Part shown: positions 2,725 through 28,994 of the stretch, piece by piece
How positions within the stretch are numbered: position 1 is the first letter of the stretch
Layout of the letters: every line of letters starts with the position of its first letter
Virus record (IMG/VR): IMGVR_UViG_3300005264_000072
Location: 1-28,994 of that record
From: a virus
Reading direction: 5' to 3' (one strand)
DNA: 28,994 nucleotides
The notes under the pieces: generated by a model
Database searches by the model: none
The model's input: only the letters and a program-made list of their open reading frames with translations
What the model was told of the DNA's origin: nothing
Program-made: the position numbers and the translations under genes

Positions 2725-3333
2725 TTAATTACCTCCCTGTAAAATACTATTTATCGCACTATTTTGGCTTGTAAAGTTGCCCCCTTGACCCCATGGACTC
2801 TGTTGTGTACTTGAAGGTGCATTGTTCCATGAAGGTGTTACTTGTTGAATCGGTGCTTGTTGGATTGGTGCTTGTTGGATTGGTACTTGTTGAATTGGTG
2901 CTTGTTGGATTGGTGCTTGTTGAATCGGTGCTTGTTGAATCGGTACTTGTTGGATTGGTGCTTGTTGAATCGGTACTTGTTGAATTGGTGCTTGTTGAAT
3001 CGGTACTTGTTGTGATTGTTGGCCTTGTGTTGCCATAATATAATGATCTATTATTAATTGTTGAATATATTTTCTTAAATCTCCCGATAACGGATGTGCA
3101 ATATCATAATACTCGGGAGAGCCATTTTTATCATAACTTTTCTGTGGAAATGTTGCAAATAGACCATTTCGTCCATTCACTATTTTTAGATCCTTAACTA
3201 CAAATATATCATTAATTGTTATATCGGCAAAACTAACTACTTTACTCTGTGTATTCTTTACTAATTTAATTGCTATCTGTGTTATTGCCAAACCATTATA
3301 ATTTTGACTGTTATTTACTTGATATTTTAACAT
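2725..3333 (-). CDS. SpoVG-family protein with PIQQ-repeat tail
   Basis: 202 residues. Residues about 16-98 match SpoVG, a small nucleic-acid-binding regulator of Bacillota: a [16 protein letters not shown] strand followed by [10 protein letters not shown] and a helix. The C-terminal half is a low-complexity tail of about 11 tandem [AV]PIQQ units, then a Ser/Asn/Gly-rich end. The ATG at 3333 is preferred over the GTG at 3342 because AAGGAG lies 8 bases before 3333. It sits in the replication half between unknown genes and a nucleotide kinase, and no separate SSB gene is visible. A role as an SSB-like or regulatory nucleic-acid binder is possible but is inference. Confidence 0.85.
2841..3012 (-). 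repeat. 15-bp tandem repeat coding for [AV]PIQQ
   Basis: About 11 in-frame copies of a 15-base unit. Copies differ mainly at one position (GCA against GTA, giving Ala or Val) and at a synonymous Ile codon. The mosaic of variants suggests expansion and contraction by slippage or recombination. It lies in the C-terminal half of the SpoVG-like gene. Confidence 0.95.
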
Positions 3334-3384
3334 ATTAATCACTCCTTAGTTTTTCGCCTCATGTCCTCTACAAGAGACGTATTA

Positions 3385-6363: not shown

Positions 6364-6392
6364 TTGACAACAATTTTACCTTATGTTATAAT
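6364..6392 (+). promoter_or_regulatory. Rightward early promoter, copy 1
   Basis: TTGACA (6364-6369), a 17-base spacer and TATAAT (6387-6392), with an extended -10 (TGTTATAAT). The consensus match is perfect. The region 6383-6414 is repeated exactly at 6707-6738. Confidence 0.9.
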
Positions 6393-6414
6393 TAGGGTAC
6401 ACAATAAGTTCTTA
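6383..6414 (+). repeat. 32-bp direct repeat over promoter start site (copy 1)
   Basis: Identical to 6707-6738, 324 bases downstream. It spans the -10 box, the likely start site and the first transcribed bases (GGGTACACAATAAG). Conservation beyond the promoter boxes suggests an operator or a conserved 5' RNA end. Confidence 0.9.
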
Positions 6415-6687
6415 ACTATAAACAAATTAGTACTAGTCTATAACCTTTTACTTTTAAAATAGATAGTCTATAATCTTATAGTTTAGTCAATAGTCTAAGT
6501 ATATAGTCTATAATATCTCTTTAAGTATACATATATGTATTACTAAGGAGATATTTTTCTGCTTTAAAAGAGAGAAAAAGCATTCTGATGTTTACAGAGG
6601 CGACTACATACTCCTCTTCCTTTTAAATACCAATTCCAGTTTCTTCTATTGTAACCACAACATCATTACCCTTTTAAAAACTTAAAT

Positions 6688-6716
6688 TTGACAAGCTTTT
6701 TTAATGATGTTATAAT
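6688..6716 (+). promoter_or_regulatory. Rightward early promoter, copy 2
   Basis: TTGACA (6688-6693), a 17-base spacer and TATAAT (6711-6716), with TGT before the -10. It shares 32 identical bases with copy 1 around the -10 and the start site, while the spacers differ. It reads into the small gene at 6888 and the methyltransferase. Confidence 0.9.
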
Positions 6717-6738
6717 TAGGGTACACAATAAGTTCTTA
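6707..6738 (+). repeat. 32-bp direct repeat over promoter start site (copy 2)
   Basis: Second copy of the repeat at 6383-6414. Confidence 0.9.
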
Positions 6739-6887
6739 TACTATTTTAAAAGTAAATAAACATTAATAATTAGTCTATAAGCTAATATAATAGACTATAG
6801 ACAATAGTAATAGACAATAGACTAATATAATAGGTAATAGTCTAAATATATACTAATAATTAATTTCTTTTCAAAGGGAGGCGACAG

Positions 6888-7052: not shown

Positions 7053-7956
7053 GCATTTAGCTAAGGCAAAGGCAAAAAAGAATGATGAATTTTATACAAT
7101 GTATTCAGATATAGAAAAGGAATTAATCCATTATAAAGATCATTTTAAAGGCAAGGTGATATATTGTAATTGTGATGATCCGAAAATGAGTAACTTTTAT
7201 AAATACTTCATAGATAACTTTAATAGTTTAGGCATAAAGAAAGTCGTCTCTACTTATTATAGTTCCACTGATGCAGTCTTTAAAACAGAATATGACGGTA
7301 CAATGATGACAAGGAGTCAACTAGCCCAGAATGGTGATTTTAGAAGCCAGGAGGCGATAGACATATTAGTAAGTGCAGACATTGTCATTACTAACCCACC
7401 ATTCTCTCTCTTTAGAGAATATGTTGATCAATTAATAAAGTACAAGAAGAATTTTCTTATACTTGGCAACAATAATGCGATAACATATAAGGATGTCTTC
7501 TCTTTAATAAAGAGCAATAAGATTTGGCTTGGTTATCATGCAAATAAAACTATGGAATTTAGATTAAGTGAAAAATATTCTAAATGGGATAGAATAGATG
7601 AATATGGGTATAAATTTGGGAAAGTACCAACAATTTCATGGTTCACAAATTTAGAACACAGTAAACGAAACGAAAAAATAATATCCTATAAGGAATATTC
7701 AGAAGTAGAATTTCCGAAATATGACAATTACGATGCAATAAATATAGATAAAGTAAAAGATATACCTAAAGATTACTTTGGTATTATGGGTGTTCCAATT
7801 ACTTTTCTAACTAAACATAACCCAGAGCAATTTGAAATCTTAGGAATAGATAGATATATAGAGGATAACCCTAATTATGGCAAAAGATTTAAAATAAACA
7901 ATAAAGAAAAATATGCACGTATACTTATTCAAAGAAGAGGAGACAAATTAATTTGA
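7039..7956 (+). CDS. EcoRI-type adenine-specific DNA methyltransferase
   Basis: 305 residues. It fits the EcoRI-methylase family of N6-adenine methyltransferases: NPPF at 119-122 is the catalytic motif IV, NCDDPKMSNFYKYF (44-57) is characteristic of the family, and ILGNNN follows at about 141-146. It would transfer methyl from S-adenosylmethionine to adenine in a short DNA motif. No endonuclease gene is nearby, so it acts as an orphan enzyme, probably protecting phage DNA from a host restriction system or marking it. The ATG at 7039 is chosen because GGAGGA precedes it; a TTG at 7015 in the same frame lies upstream of that site. Its stop overlaps the -35 box of the next promoter. Confidence 0.88.
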   Translation: MSKNRHLAKAKAKKNDEFYTMYSDIEKELIHYKDHFKGKVIYCNCDDPKMSNFYKYFIDNFNSLGIKKVVSTYYSSTDAVFKTEYDGTMMTRSQLAQNGDFRSQEAIDILVSADIVITNPPFSLFREYVDQLIKYKKNFLILGNNNAITYKDVFSLIKSNKIWLGYHANKTMEFRLSEKYSKWDRIDEYGYKFGKVPTISWFTNLEHSKRNEKIISYKEYSEVEFPKYDNYDAINIDKVKDIPKDYFGIMGVPITFLTKHNPEQFEILGIDRYIEDNPNYGKRFKINNKEKYARILIQRRGDKLI

Positions 7957-8426: not shown

Positions 8427-9653
8427 ATGTTTAAGGTAAATGGTGACAAAATAACAGTAGAGGCGATGAATGGGGACTGGGTAGTTATAACTCTGGAACA
8501 AGAGGAAAAGATCAGGGAGGCGTATGTATCGGAGAAGAAGAGCATGCGAGAAGTTGCAGGGGTTGTGGATCTTCCTTATAATGATTTCCTAACAGTGAAG
8601 AGAGGTCTGGGATTAACCAGAAAGTCGTCTCCACTATCAATTAGGCAGTTATCTGCTATGCATGAAGATGATATGACCGATGAAGAGATACTTTCCTGGA
8701 GTATCGAGCAGCACTATGAAGCATTAGAAAGAAGTTTTTATAAGAAAAAAGACAAGTTAACGGAGACAACATTAAAGAATTTAGTTCATGATAGATCATA
8801 CGAATCGGCCATAGCAGAGAAAATAGCGTCAAGAGAGAGATTTACCATCGAAGGGCTATCGTCTCTTAGAGTTGTTCCTAAGACGTCCAGAGGCACAATG
8901 GTCATACCATTGGCAGATTGGCATTATGGTATGAGCGTAGACACGGCAGTAAATATTATGAATATTGATATAATGAAGGCAAATATAAAGAGAGTAACAC
9001 AGGAGACGATTAGGTTAGTTTTAAAAGAGCAACCAGAAGAAATATACATTATGAACTTAGGTGATCTGATTCATGGAATTATCCATACAAGTACACGTTT
9101 TGACAGTGTTATAGATGTTGTTGATCAAGTAACAGATGTTGCATCAATGGTTAGTGAATTTATCAATGCGCTCGCCAATGTTTATGGGGGCAAAATCGTC
9201 TACTGTGATGTTTTTGGTAATCATGGTAGGGTTACACCAGACATCACATCTCATAGAACTGGAGAGAATTTTGAGCGCTTAGTAAGTAAATTTGTTAGAT
9301 TGATGATTGATGTAGATGTTGAGTATGATAGTTATGAGGTTACGGAGTTAATTAAGCAAACAATAACAAGCAATGGAGCGATAACGTACACTCATGCAGC
9401 AAATAGAAACATGGCAAGAGCAATCAAAGATTTGGCATTGCTTACTAATGTAAGGCCCAATCTGATACTTGCAGGGCATTATCATTCTGATACATTCAGA
9501 GCAGAGCAAAAGAACATTAAGATGATTGTTACTCCGTCTCTATGTGGTGCAGATAGCTATGCACAGAAGCTTACATTTATAGGAAAGCCACAGCAAACAT
9601 TTCTATTTTTAAAAGATGGGGAATTAGCCAGCCAACATTTTTATACATTGTAA
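8427..9653 (+). CDS. Calcineurin-like metallophosphoesterase with N-terminal HTH
   Basis: 408 residues. The metal-binding motifs appear in order: D164-W-H166 (PLADWHYG), GD at 212-213, GNH at 264-266 and GHYH at 350-353. This is the metallophosphoesterase fold seen in SbcD/Mre11-type nucleases and many phage phosphoesterases. The first 65 residues contain a probable helix-turn-helix (KSMREVAGVVDLPYND), suggesting DNA contact. The ATG at 8427 is chosen from its GAGGAGGAGAC site; an in-frame ATG at 8376 lies within the preceding gene. A DNA-processing nuclease role is likely but unproven. It is the last gene before the terminase operon. Confidence 0.85.
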   Translation: MFKVNGDKITVEAMNGDWVVITLEQEEKIREAYVSEKKSMREVAGVVDLPYNDFLTVKRGLGLTRKSSPLSIRQLSAMHEDDMTDEEILSWSIEQHYEALERSFYKKKDKLTETTLKNLVHDRSYESAIAEKIASRERFTIEGLSSLRVVPKTSRGTMVIPLADWHYGMSVDTAVNIMNIDIMKANIKRVTQETIRLVLKEQPEEIYIMNLGDLIHGIIHTSTRFDSVIDVVDQVTDVASMVSEFINALANVYGGKIVYCDVFGNHGRVTPDITSHRTGENFERLVSKFVRLMIDVDVEYDSYEVTELIKQTITSNGAITYTHAANRNMARAIKDLALLTNVRPNLILAGHYHSDTFRAEQKNIKMIVTPSLCGADSYAQKLTFIGKPQQTFLFLKDGELASQHFYTL

Positions 9654-9661
9654 CATTAAAT

Positions 9662-9690
9662 TTGACTTTTATGTATATTTATGTTATACT
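9662..9690 (+). promoter_or_regulatory. Rightward promoter for the morphogenesis operon
   Basis: TTGACT (9662-9667), a 17-base spacer and TATACT (9685-9690), with an extended -10 (TGTTATACT). It is the only strong promoter seen immediately before the terminase genes. The start site would be near 9697. Confidence 0.85.
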
Positions 9691-9696
9691 GTATGT

Positions 9697-9780
9697 AGGT
9701 GATTAAGTAATATATGATTACTTAGTTTCCATAAGAATAAAAGGTATGGGCCTCCTCCCCTTGCCTTTTATTTTCACCAC
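9697..9780 (+). ncRNA. Structured leader or small RNA with CCUCCUC loop
   Basis: Downstream of the promoter lie two hairpins. Hairpin 1 is an 8-bp perfect stem (9704-9711 with 9717-9724, loop ATATG). Hairpin 2 pairs 9736-9750 with 9758-9772 over 15 positions, with one G-U pair and one T-T mismatch. Its 7-base loop is CCTCCTC (9751-9757), complementary to the GAGGAGG ribosome sites used by many genes here, and its CCTCC part to GGAGG at 9802-9806 before the small terminase gene. A T-rich tract follows the stem, so it may also terminate transcription. It could be a regulatory leader, an attenuator or an 80-nt small RNA; the sequence alone cannot decide. Confidence 0.55.
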
Positions 9781-9812
9781 ATTTAAAAGAGGAAAATAGA
9801 AGGAGGTGACTT

Positions 9813-10265
9813 ATGTCAAAAGGGTATAATTGGGCAATAATTAAAGCAGAATATGAAACAGGAAAATACTCTATGCGTGAGTTATCAAAGAAGCATGGAT
9901 TTAATGAGAGTTATGCAAGAAGAAAGTCAAATAAAAATAATTGGGTTAAAGGAAAAACAAACAAAAAGGTAACGCAGGCAGCCGCAAAAAGAGTATTAGA
10001 TCGGATAGGTAAAAATGAGGCGGACATTAAGCAGGAGTTATATAATACATTAATAATGATAGAAAGCAAGATGAATCAAGAGTGGGGAAATATTGAACCA
10101 GATTTTGGTACATTGAAGTCAACTAAAATATCTACTGAGATACTGCAAAATATAATGGATATGAAATATGAGTTATTAGATATACAGAAGGTGGCTAAGA
10201 GGGTTGAAGAGAAATTAGATATTAACAGTGTAGATGGTGTTAATATTAAAATAGTAGATGAGTAA
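9813..10265 (+). CDS. Terminase small subunit
   Basis: 150 residues, starting at ATG 9813 behind GAAGGAGGTGAC. The N-terminal half holds a helix-turn-helix-like segment (YSMRELSKKHGFNESYARRK, about 20-39) followed by basic residues, as in small terminase subunits that recognise the packaging site. The C-terminal half is helical and acidic and would mediate oligomerisation and contact with the large subunit. It overlaps the start of the large-subunit gene by 8 bases (ATGAGTAA), a normal terminase arrangement. Family assignment rests mainly on position and general features. Confidence 0.85.
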   Translation: MSKGYNWAIIKAEYETGKYSMRELSKKHGFNESYARRKSNKNNWVKGKTNKKVTQAAAKRVLDRIGKNEADIKQELYNTLIMIESKMNQEWGNIEPDFGTLKSTKISTEILQNIMDMKYELLDIQKVAKRVEEKLDINSVDGVNIKIVDE

Positions 10266-15367: not shown

Positions 15368-15391
15368 GCTCGGGTAATACCGAGCTTTTTT
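15368..15391 (+). terminator. Intrinsic terminator after major capsid gene
   Basis: Stem GCTCGG (15368-15373) with CCGAGC (15380-15385), 6-base loop, then six T (15386-15391). Some readthrough is needed, because no new promoter is evident before the next gene at 15403. Confidence 0.9.
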
Positions 15392-15402: not shown

Positions 15403-15687
15403 ATGGAAATTTTAAGAAATGGAATCACAAGAATATGTACTGAGATAGATTATAATAGAAAATTTAAGAGTTTGGGTTATAAGATGGTTACTGATTCAGA
15501 AGATGTTGCTGATCCAGAAGATGTTGCTGATCCAGAAGATGTTGCTGATTCAGAAGATGTTGCTGATTCACTGGATTTAAGTTTGGACAAGTTAAGCTAT
15601 AAAGAGTTACAGGCGTTAGCAAAAGAAAAGGGTATATCTAAGGTACAGATTAAGAAAGCAGAATTAATAAAGTTCTTGGAGGTGTAA
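15403..15687 (+). CDS. Head-region protein with acidic repeats and HeH/SAP-like domain
   Basis: 94 residues. After a 30-residue N-terminal part come four [SP]EDVAD hexapeptide repeats (about 31-54). The C-terminal 35 residues (LSYKELQALAKEKGISKVQIKKAELIKFLEV, in two halves) form a typical HeH/SAP-like helix-extended-loop-helix motif. Such proteins commonly sit between the capsid and connector genes in Firmicutes phages; the C-terminal motif usually binds DNA or protein. The role in the virion is unknown. The ATG follows AAGGAGGACTT. Confidence 0.82.
   Translation: MEILRNGITRICTEIDYNRKFKSLGYKMVTDSEDVADPEDVADPEDVADSEDVADSLDLSLDKLSYKELQALAKEKGISKVQIKKAELIKFLEV
15493..15564 (+). repeat. 18-bp tandem repeat, four copies
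   Basis: Four nearly identical in-frame units (GAT-C/T-CAGAAGATGTTGCT) coding for D-[SP]-EDVA, followed by a partial fifth unit. Recent slippage expansion is likely. Confidence 0.95.
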
Positions 15688-26796: not shown

Positions 26797-26834
26797 AAAA
26801 AGAAGAGTTACCTATGTGTAGGGCTCTTCTTTTT
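26797..26834. terminator. Bidirectional terminator between convergent operons
   Basis: Perfect 11-bp stem AAAAAGAAGAG (26797-26807) with CTCTTCTTTTT (26824-26834). The loop itself can pair CCTA with TAGG. The A- and T-tracts give a terminator signature on both strands, stopping the rightward late operon and the leftward unit that ends at 26842. Confidence 0.93.
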
Positions 26835-28223: not shown

Positions 28224-28994
28224 TATATCAACCCCTCTTCTGTTATACTCCTATAATTATCTAACTGTACTGTAGACTTGACTTCTTCCTCTGTTTCCTC
28301 TATATATTTCTCCCATCCTAATGGTCCATAAGTTACACCATCTAATTGAGTAAAACTTCTACGTTTTGTATCAAAAGATAATTGAACATAACCTAAATCT
28401 GCCGTCTCTCTTGCTTTTAAGATTCTTAGTATTCCTTCACAATTATTATATTCATCAATTGATTTAACAAATTCATCATACGCTCTTTCTATTGCTAAAA
28501 CATTGTCTGCAATATTGAATATGTCTCCTGATCCCTTAATATCTTTAAGAGTAAGTCGTTCTCCTCTATCCTTGTCTTTATTTGGATGCACAATTAATAA
28601 AACAGTTACTTTATATAGTTCTGCAAAATCTTTAAGTGTTTGTACAAAATCTTGTTGGTCTTTATATTGGCTTGCAGCGGTTGTTTTTAGTACACTCATA
28701 AGATTATCTATAACAAAATATTTAATTCCTTTCTTTATTAGTTTTACCATTGCCTCAATAACATCATTATGATGTCCACCAAGACGTTTTCTACTATACA
28801 CATATAATTTACCTTCTAACCATTCATCGATGTATTTCTGATATTTCTTTTGTGGTATTGATATATACCTTTTATTCTTTTTAACAGTCTTTAGATACCT
28901 TTCATCTTGTAAACTCTGAGTATATACCCATTCCTGGAACATATCTTTTGATAATTCACCATTAAATATAAATGTTTTAGTGTTTTGTCGTATT
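28223..28994 (-). CDS. Primase-helicase, C-terminal helicase part (continues from position 104)
   Basis: This is the helicase domain of the gene that starts at 1174. Bases 28891-28994 duplicate 1-104, so the reading frame runs through the join without interruption; the part unique to this end is about the last 222 residues. Seen: a Walker-B-like strand (YFVIDNL, near residue 449) and a conserved histidine motif (VHPNK, near residue 493), both typical of T7 gp4/DnaB-type hexameric helicases. An ATG near 28942 is only an internal methionine and not a real start. The TAA stop overlaps the ATG of the metallopeptidase gene (TAATG), which suggests translational coupling. Confidence 0.95.
   Translation of the reverse strand, partial: IRQNTKTFIFNGELSKDMFQEWVYTQSLQDERYLKTVKKNKRYISIPQKKYQKYIDEWLEGKLYVYSRKRLGGHHNDVIEAMVKLIKKGIKYFVIDNLMSVLKTTAASQYKDQQDFVQTLKDFAELYKVTVLLIVHPNKDKDRGERLTLKDIKGSGDIFNIADNVLAIERAYDEFVKSIDEYNNCEGILRILKARETADLGYVQLSFDTKRRSFTQLDGVTYGPLGWEKYIEETEEEVKSTVQLDNYRSITEEGLI
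28891..28994. repeat. Terminal redundancy, right copy
   Basis: Identical to positions 1-104; see the left copy. Removing one copy leaves a circle of 28,890 bp. Confidence 0.9.

Follow-up and report, generated by a model that had tools for sequence, protein, structure and literature searches.

How does transcription enter the packaging genes of this phage, and does an RNA loop complementary to ribosome binding sites take part in it? The window (the whole stretch of 28,994 nucleotides that was analyzed) has a strong promoter and two hairpins between the exonuclease gene and terS, and the second hairpin presents the loop CCUCCUC. For this element the initial annotation suggested a translational switch of the packaging operon, an attenuator, or a short trans-acting RNA that lowers early translation late in infection. 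We considered these possibilities using the sequence of the junction itself, its relatives and a survey of terminase loci.

Genome organization around the terS junction

The window carries a 104-bp exact direct repeat at both ends (1–104 and 28891–28994) and therefore probably represents the whole genome (circularly assembled, ~28.9 kb). Encoded in the left arm and in the genes as far as position 9653 are DNA polymerase A, a primase/helicase, a guanylate kinase, an EcoRI-type methyltransferase and an exonuclease, plus an endolysin. The exonuclease gene is the immediate upstream neighbor of the junction. From 9813 rightward follow terS, terL (PF04466), an SPP1-type portal, a Mu F-like protein, a scaffold and then more structural genes. 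According to a folding-based terminator scan, both arms of the genome converge on a bidirectional terminator at 26799–26832. The junction comprises the following features.

9662–9690, + strand: promoter of the sigma-A type with an extended −10, TTGACT-17-TATACT (10/12 positions agree with the consensus, and TG precedes the −10).
9701–9727, + strand: hairpin 1, either a hairpin in the RNA or a palindrome in the DNA (about +7 to +28), with an 8-bp core at 9704–9711/9717–9724 (fold −7.6 kcal/mol).
9736–9772, + strand: hairpin 2, a terminator-like stem-loop with the loop CCUCCUC at 9751–9757 (folding, terminator scan).
9766–9774, + strand: terminator T-tract TTTTATTTT, overlapping the 3′ arm of hairpin 2 (sequence, terminator scan).
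9792–9803, + strand: possible alternative-pairing segment GAAAATAGAAGG, complementary at 11 of 12 positions to the 3′ arm and tail of hairpin 2 (9764–9775).
9800–9808, + strand: terS ribosome binding site AAGGAGGTG (sequence).
9813–10265, + strand: terS, the small terminase subunit gene, which opens the packaging and structural operon (phrog_1206 match, E = 3.5e-8; adjoins terL, PF04466).

Two further loci were noted in the same genome. Inside the late operon, a strong intrinsic terminator (15368–15385, + strand; GCTCGGG..CCGAGC TTTTTT) is positioned directly ahead of the gene at 15403. In the left arm, the phage gene at 2725–3342 (− strand) codes for a SpoVG domain with a C-terminal extension; the late promoter of phage phi13 has been reported as affected by host SpoVG (PMC13123087).

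The promoter and hairpin 1

The strong promoter that had been placed directly ahead of the hairpins is indeed there, and it stands well above chance: on the + strand of the window there are four sites of such quality (6364, 6688, 7953 and 9662), compared with 0.36 per shuffle. Transcription is predicted to start near 9697. The designation of this promoter as ‘late’ fared less well and should be taken as a label only, since the site falls into one class with the early-region promoters at 6364, 6688 and 7953. Two of the latter are perfect promoters (TTGACA-17-TATAAT with TG; 6364–6420 and 6688–6745) that share an identical downstream stretch, TATAATTAGGGTACACAATAAGTTCTTA, and between them there is a strong hairpin with a T-run (6512–6555).

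Late control in Gram-positive phages has been described as promoter activation of the Ltr/RinA kind, e.g. by phi13 Ltr at P23 upstream of terS (PMC13123087). By analogy, a phage activator bound at upstream repeats could turn on the 9662 promoter late, with the hairpins being leader structure only. The likeness consists in the position of the promoter, which precedes a packaging operon that has terS close to its beginning. Two imperfect 16-nt direct repeats (88% alike) at 9591–9606 (CAGCAAACATTTCTAT) and 9629–9644 (CAGCCAACATTTTTAT), upstream of the promoter at the end of the exonuclease gene, speak for this explanation. However, these repeats may be due to chance in AT-rich DNA, and promoters of the Ltr/RinA kind depend on four repeats and an activator gene directly upstream, whereas here the upstream gene is the exonuclease and no activator gene of this kind was recognized near terS. 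Moreover, both the −35 and the −10 are near consensus, as in the early promoters, so that an activator is not obviously needed. We consider this explanation very unlikely.

Hairpin 1 corresponds to the second, 8-bp hairpin that had been noted ahead of the main one; its core (9704–9724) extends to 9701–9727. The genome has no second copy of it, even with up to three mismatches allowed, and on these grounds hairpin 1 was rejected as one of several operator copies. It might still serve as a single operator.

Hairpin 2 has the anatomy of an intrinsic terminator

The arms of hairpin 2 (9736–9750 and 9758–9772) form 13 Watson–Crick pairs, one U·G and one U·U. The folding energy is −17.5 kcal/mol (z = −4.9), and none of 200 shuffled sequences is equally stable. 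The description of a 15-position stem with one G-U pair and one mismatch, the loop CCTCCTC and a T-rich tail is accurate in every part, and the structure is well above chance. Hairpin 2 consists of an A-run and a GC core, then TTTTATTTTC, and is shaped like the operon-end terminator at 26799–26832. Because the T-tract overlaps the 3′ arm, hairpin 2 was missed by a simple terminator scan and detected only by the folding-based one. One hallmark of an intrinsic terminator is a GC-containing stem-loop directly followed by a T-tract, and 9736–9772 together with 9766–9774 present this arrangement. Its assignment as a terminator, as judged by anatomy, is well supported. When the window was searched with Rfam 15 families, there was no match at gathering thresholds, and relaxed thresholds produced only chance-level matches.

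Terminators recur directly ahead of terS

Our survey covered 244 non-redundant terminase loci with at least 260 nt of upstream sequence, and a terminator was counted if it occurred within 140 nt before terS. Intrinsic terminators were found in 89 of these loci (155 are without), whereas shuffled sequences gave an expectation of 7.0. Other genes of the surveyed loci are preceded by a terminator in 50 of 411 cases (terS versus others, p = 7e-13); this and the subsequent survey p-values are optimistic, as terS starts come from an automatic assignment and only loci with identical 60-nt upstream stretches were collapsed as redundant, so that related loci remain. Since terS often begins an operon, we also compared genes matched by the size of the intergenic gap (50–400 nt). 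The terminator is present before terS in 73 of 136 cases and before other genes in 34 of 112 (p = 3e-4). If only hairpins ending within 50 nt of the start codon are considered, the gap-matched counts are 47 for terS and 14 for other genes (p = 6e-5). Among all 89 terminator-bearing loci, the hairpin ends within 50 nt ahead of terS in 59. This leaves little room for a promoter, and therefore the polymerases that transcribe terS must mostly pass the hairpin.

Phages of Streptococcus, Lactococcus and Staphylococcus likewise have a terminator placed before terS. The recurrent feature is the terminator directly before terS, not the loop. Of the proposals made for this element, that of an attenuator or terminator is supported by both the anatomy of hairpin 2 and the terminators at the same position in many relatives. 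The promoter–terminator–terS order of the window is found in two other loci (L250 and L082) and, in a weaker form, in a third (L315). Overall, consensus promoters upstream of the pre-terS terminator are only slightly enriched (5 versus 1.8 expected, score 10.5). In the open-licence literature, we found no paper with terminators directly before terS as its topic.

The same data bear on the view that hairpin 2 is a plain boundary terminator, which only ends the transcripts of the early operon (the exonuclease and preceding genes) and at which nothing is regulated. The promoter-like site at 9662 would then be weak, unused, or strong enough to leak past hairpin 2. Such a view is consistent with the many relatives in which the pre-terS terminator comes straight after a stop codon, the identity of the upstream gene varying, and with the terminators that are common before other gapped genes too (the above 34 of 112). 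On the other hand, terS-proximal terminators exceed those of gap-matched genes and often leave no promoter room after them, and the window has, ahead of its terminator, a promoter (10/12 plus TG) of the class expected 0.36 times per shuffle. A boundary terminator without regulation is in our opinion unlikely, although less so than the other alternatives discussed here.

Relatives of the junction

Terminase relatives were drawn from viral contigs, genomes and phage records. The closest one with upstream DNA (L228; TerL 74%) has a different terS, preceded by neither hairpin, terminator nor loop. Three others (L011, L013 and L014; TerL 66–67%) have a clear terminator 38–60 nt ahead of terS (TGCACC..GGGTGCA TTTTTTT); neither the promoter nor the loop is present there. 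Searches by TerS, by exonuclease and by DNA identified no homolog of the terS junction and no close relative of the terS of the window in these collections, so that neither a covariance model nor a covariation test is possible for hairpin 2. When viral contigs were scanned with a pattern of the exact loop hairpin, two matches were returned, both rejected as GC-rich chance.

Two other arrangements before terS were observed in this set. In Marinitoga phage MPV1 (L008, ~7564–7618), the pre-terS terminator overlaps a short reading frame that has a Shine–Dalgarno (SD) sequence and an ATG of its own (MQGFDGRPCFLF, then stop), which resembles an attenuator leader peptide. In three gut Clostridia (pro)phages (L047, L128 and L129), a stem that hardly varies, AAAAGCAAGG/CCTTGCTTTT, carries loops that are C-rich but variable, ~20–55 nt before terS.

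A proposed promoter–leader–terminator gate on the packaging operon

On balance, we moderately favor a reading in which a short leader runs from a strong host-type promoter to terS and contains hairpin 2 as its intrinsic terminator, with promoter, leader and terminator acting as a gate on the packaging operon. Transcripts starting at ~9697, plus any running in from the exonuclease gene, would reach hairpin 2 after ~70–80 nt. A fraction of polymerases would stop there and release an RNA of roughly 75–80 nt, and the packaging and structural operon would be transcribed only by those that read through. Read-through might be constant and partial, or it might be increased late by a phage or host factor, following the logic of lambda pR′-tR′ or of AlpA-controlled promoters. 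The promoter-like site, the terminator anatomy and the recurrence before terS are observed; that hairpin 2 terminates in vivo, how long the released RNA is, and that and when read-through is regulated are inferences. A function for the CCUCCUC loop is not needed in this gate.

In the lambda pR′-tR′ system with Q, as in that of AlpA, a promoter, a short leader, a terminator and an operon are combined with a factor that allows polymerase to pass (PMC6606751, PMC7969949, PMC9371919). The junction resembles these systems in having a strong promoter, a short leader, an intrinsic terminator and an operon that would be reached by read-through, which in the case of lambda consists of late phage genes. 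It differs from them in that its leader is ~80 nt, neither a Q- or AlpA-like gene nor a loading element was found, and regulated read-through is a supposition. Pfam and PHROGs scans of the genes examined recognized no antiterminator gene; several small early proteins are without a match. We therefore do not claim membership in the lambda kind, and the likeness is at most one of logic.

If the gate is right, the terminator ahead of terS is a general result: it recurs in the terminase loci of viral contigs and of clostridial and bacillar (pro)phages, often with scarcely any space left for a promoter. Controlled read-through into the packaging operon then becomes a testable idea in phages for which promoter activation is the usual description of late control.

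The CCUCCUC loop and GAGGAGG ribosome binding sites

The loop is an exact 7-nt complement of GAGGAGG, which serves as the SD sequence at seven gene starts:

7039, + strand: methyltransferase.
8195, + strand: gene start with GAGGAGG.
8427, + strand: exonuclease.
6260, − strand: DNA polymerase.
4005, − strand: gene start with GAGGAGG.
1384, − strand: gene start with GAGGAGG.
1174, − strand: primase.

All seven are early/replication genes, and none of the 24 late genes has this site (p = 0.001). GAGGAGG had been regarded as the ribosome binding site of many genes of this phage; it is a real site of multiple genes, but confined to the early/replication part of the genome, with terS among the late genes that are without it.

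Could the loop act in cis? The GGAGG of the terS SD starts at 9802 and, as had been pointed out, is 45 nt past the loop of hairpin 2, but the two pair in none of the computed folds. The more general idea that terminator loops match the SD of their own terS was rejected: over 96 terS-proximal terminators, loops match it no better than swapped SDs (p = 0.34). The cis translational switch through the loop, as initially proposed, thus finds no support. Another form of cis switch is conceivable, in which 9764–9775 of the read-through RNA pairs with GAAAAUAGAAGG (9792–9803), hiding part of the terS SD, and the state of hairpin 2 sets terS translation. With 11 of 12 positions complementary and the two forms differing by 0 to 1.8 kcal/mol, such a switch is energetically possible. 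However, hairpin 2 is transcribed first and should form first, the CCUUUU arm and the A-rich SD leader are complementary by composition, there is no conserved support, and the loops of the panel do not match their own SD. Alternative pairing is the explanation to which we give the least credence, regarding it as very improbable.

The loop might instead act in trans. In this scenario, the terminated ~80-nt leader would be stable, and its loop would pair with the GAGGAGG sites and lower translation of the DNA polymerase, primase/helicase, methyltransferase, exonuclease and three small genes, terminator and loop being one hairpin. In the computed folds the loop is unpaired once hairpin 2 is formed, as required of an exposed anti-SD loop. 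The exact complementarity to seven early SDs and no late ones speaks for this possibility, as do the duplex energies, which are −12.1 to −12.8 kcal/mol for the five GAGGAGG genes that were computed and −10.4 kcal/mol or weaker for all others. Nevertheless, SD matches of this kind are expected of any anti-SD loop, chance ones included, if early genes simply have a longer SD. In addition, the promoter belongs to the early-gene class, and a late drop of early translation does not follow.

Comparison with other loci gives a similarly divided picture. CCTCC is found inside the loop of three of the 96 terS-proximal terminators (the window, L018 and L021); of the 438 other intergenic terminators, none has it there. 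Fisher p-values for this enrichment are 0.006 by locus and 0.03 by lineage, but significance is lost (p = 0.18) once the window, which had prompted the test, is left out. L018 and L021, with TerLs 92% identical, have different stems and share the loop (C/T)ATCCTCC, which hints at selection acting on the loop within this lineage, as far as one comparison goes. This pair was also considered as a case of covariation with a conserved loop and rejected, being a single comparison in which the automatic alignment puts the loops out of register. L018 has no GGAGGA partner in its 13.2 kb. As for conservation of CCTCCTC, the loop is absent from the nearest relative, L228, and from 93 of the 96 terS-proximal terminators, although none of these is a true homolog of the junction. 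Taken together, the anti-SD loop is a real and rare sequence of unproven function, and a trans-acting RNA appears to us rather improbable.

Nearly the same holds for the combined version, in which the gate operates and the terminator hairpin doubles as a small RNA, the anti-SD loop of the ~80-nt leader tuning or shutting the GAGGAGG early genes while the terminator holds; we would put its chance a shade lower still. If true, one element would couple early translation with the switch of the late operon. The anti-SD loop would matter only given a demonstrated RNA and effect.

Two described RNAs provide a frame for such a role. IsrK of the Gifsy-1 prophage is a short transcript that ends at a terminator and has an mRNA as its read-through product; it acts in trans by activating its own long form (PMC4825925). 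Similarly, the leader of a phage promoter could here serve as both a small RNA and the start of an mRNA. The difference is that trans action has been demonstrated for IsrK, whereas the present RNA is a candidate predicted from sequence with early ribosome binding sites as its supposed targets. The staphylococcal RNAIII and other RNAs with C-rich loops (PMC2837412) resemble hairpin 2 in having a hairpin able to pair with SD sequences. RNAIII, however, is ~500 nt long and has a proven regulatory role and mapped targets, while hairpin 2 offers complementarity only.

Irrespective of the loop, the GAGGAGG common to these early genes could be where a translational repressor protein binds. This ribosome binding site often takes the form GAGGAGGAGACAATATG or GAGGAGGCAATAA.
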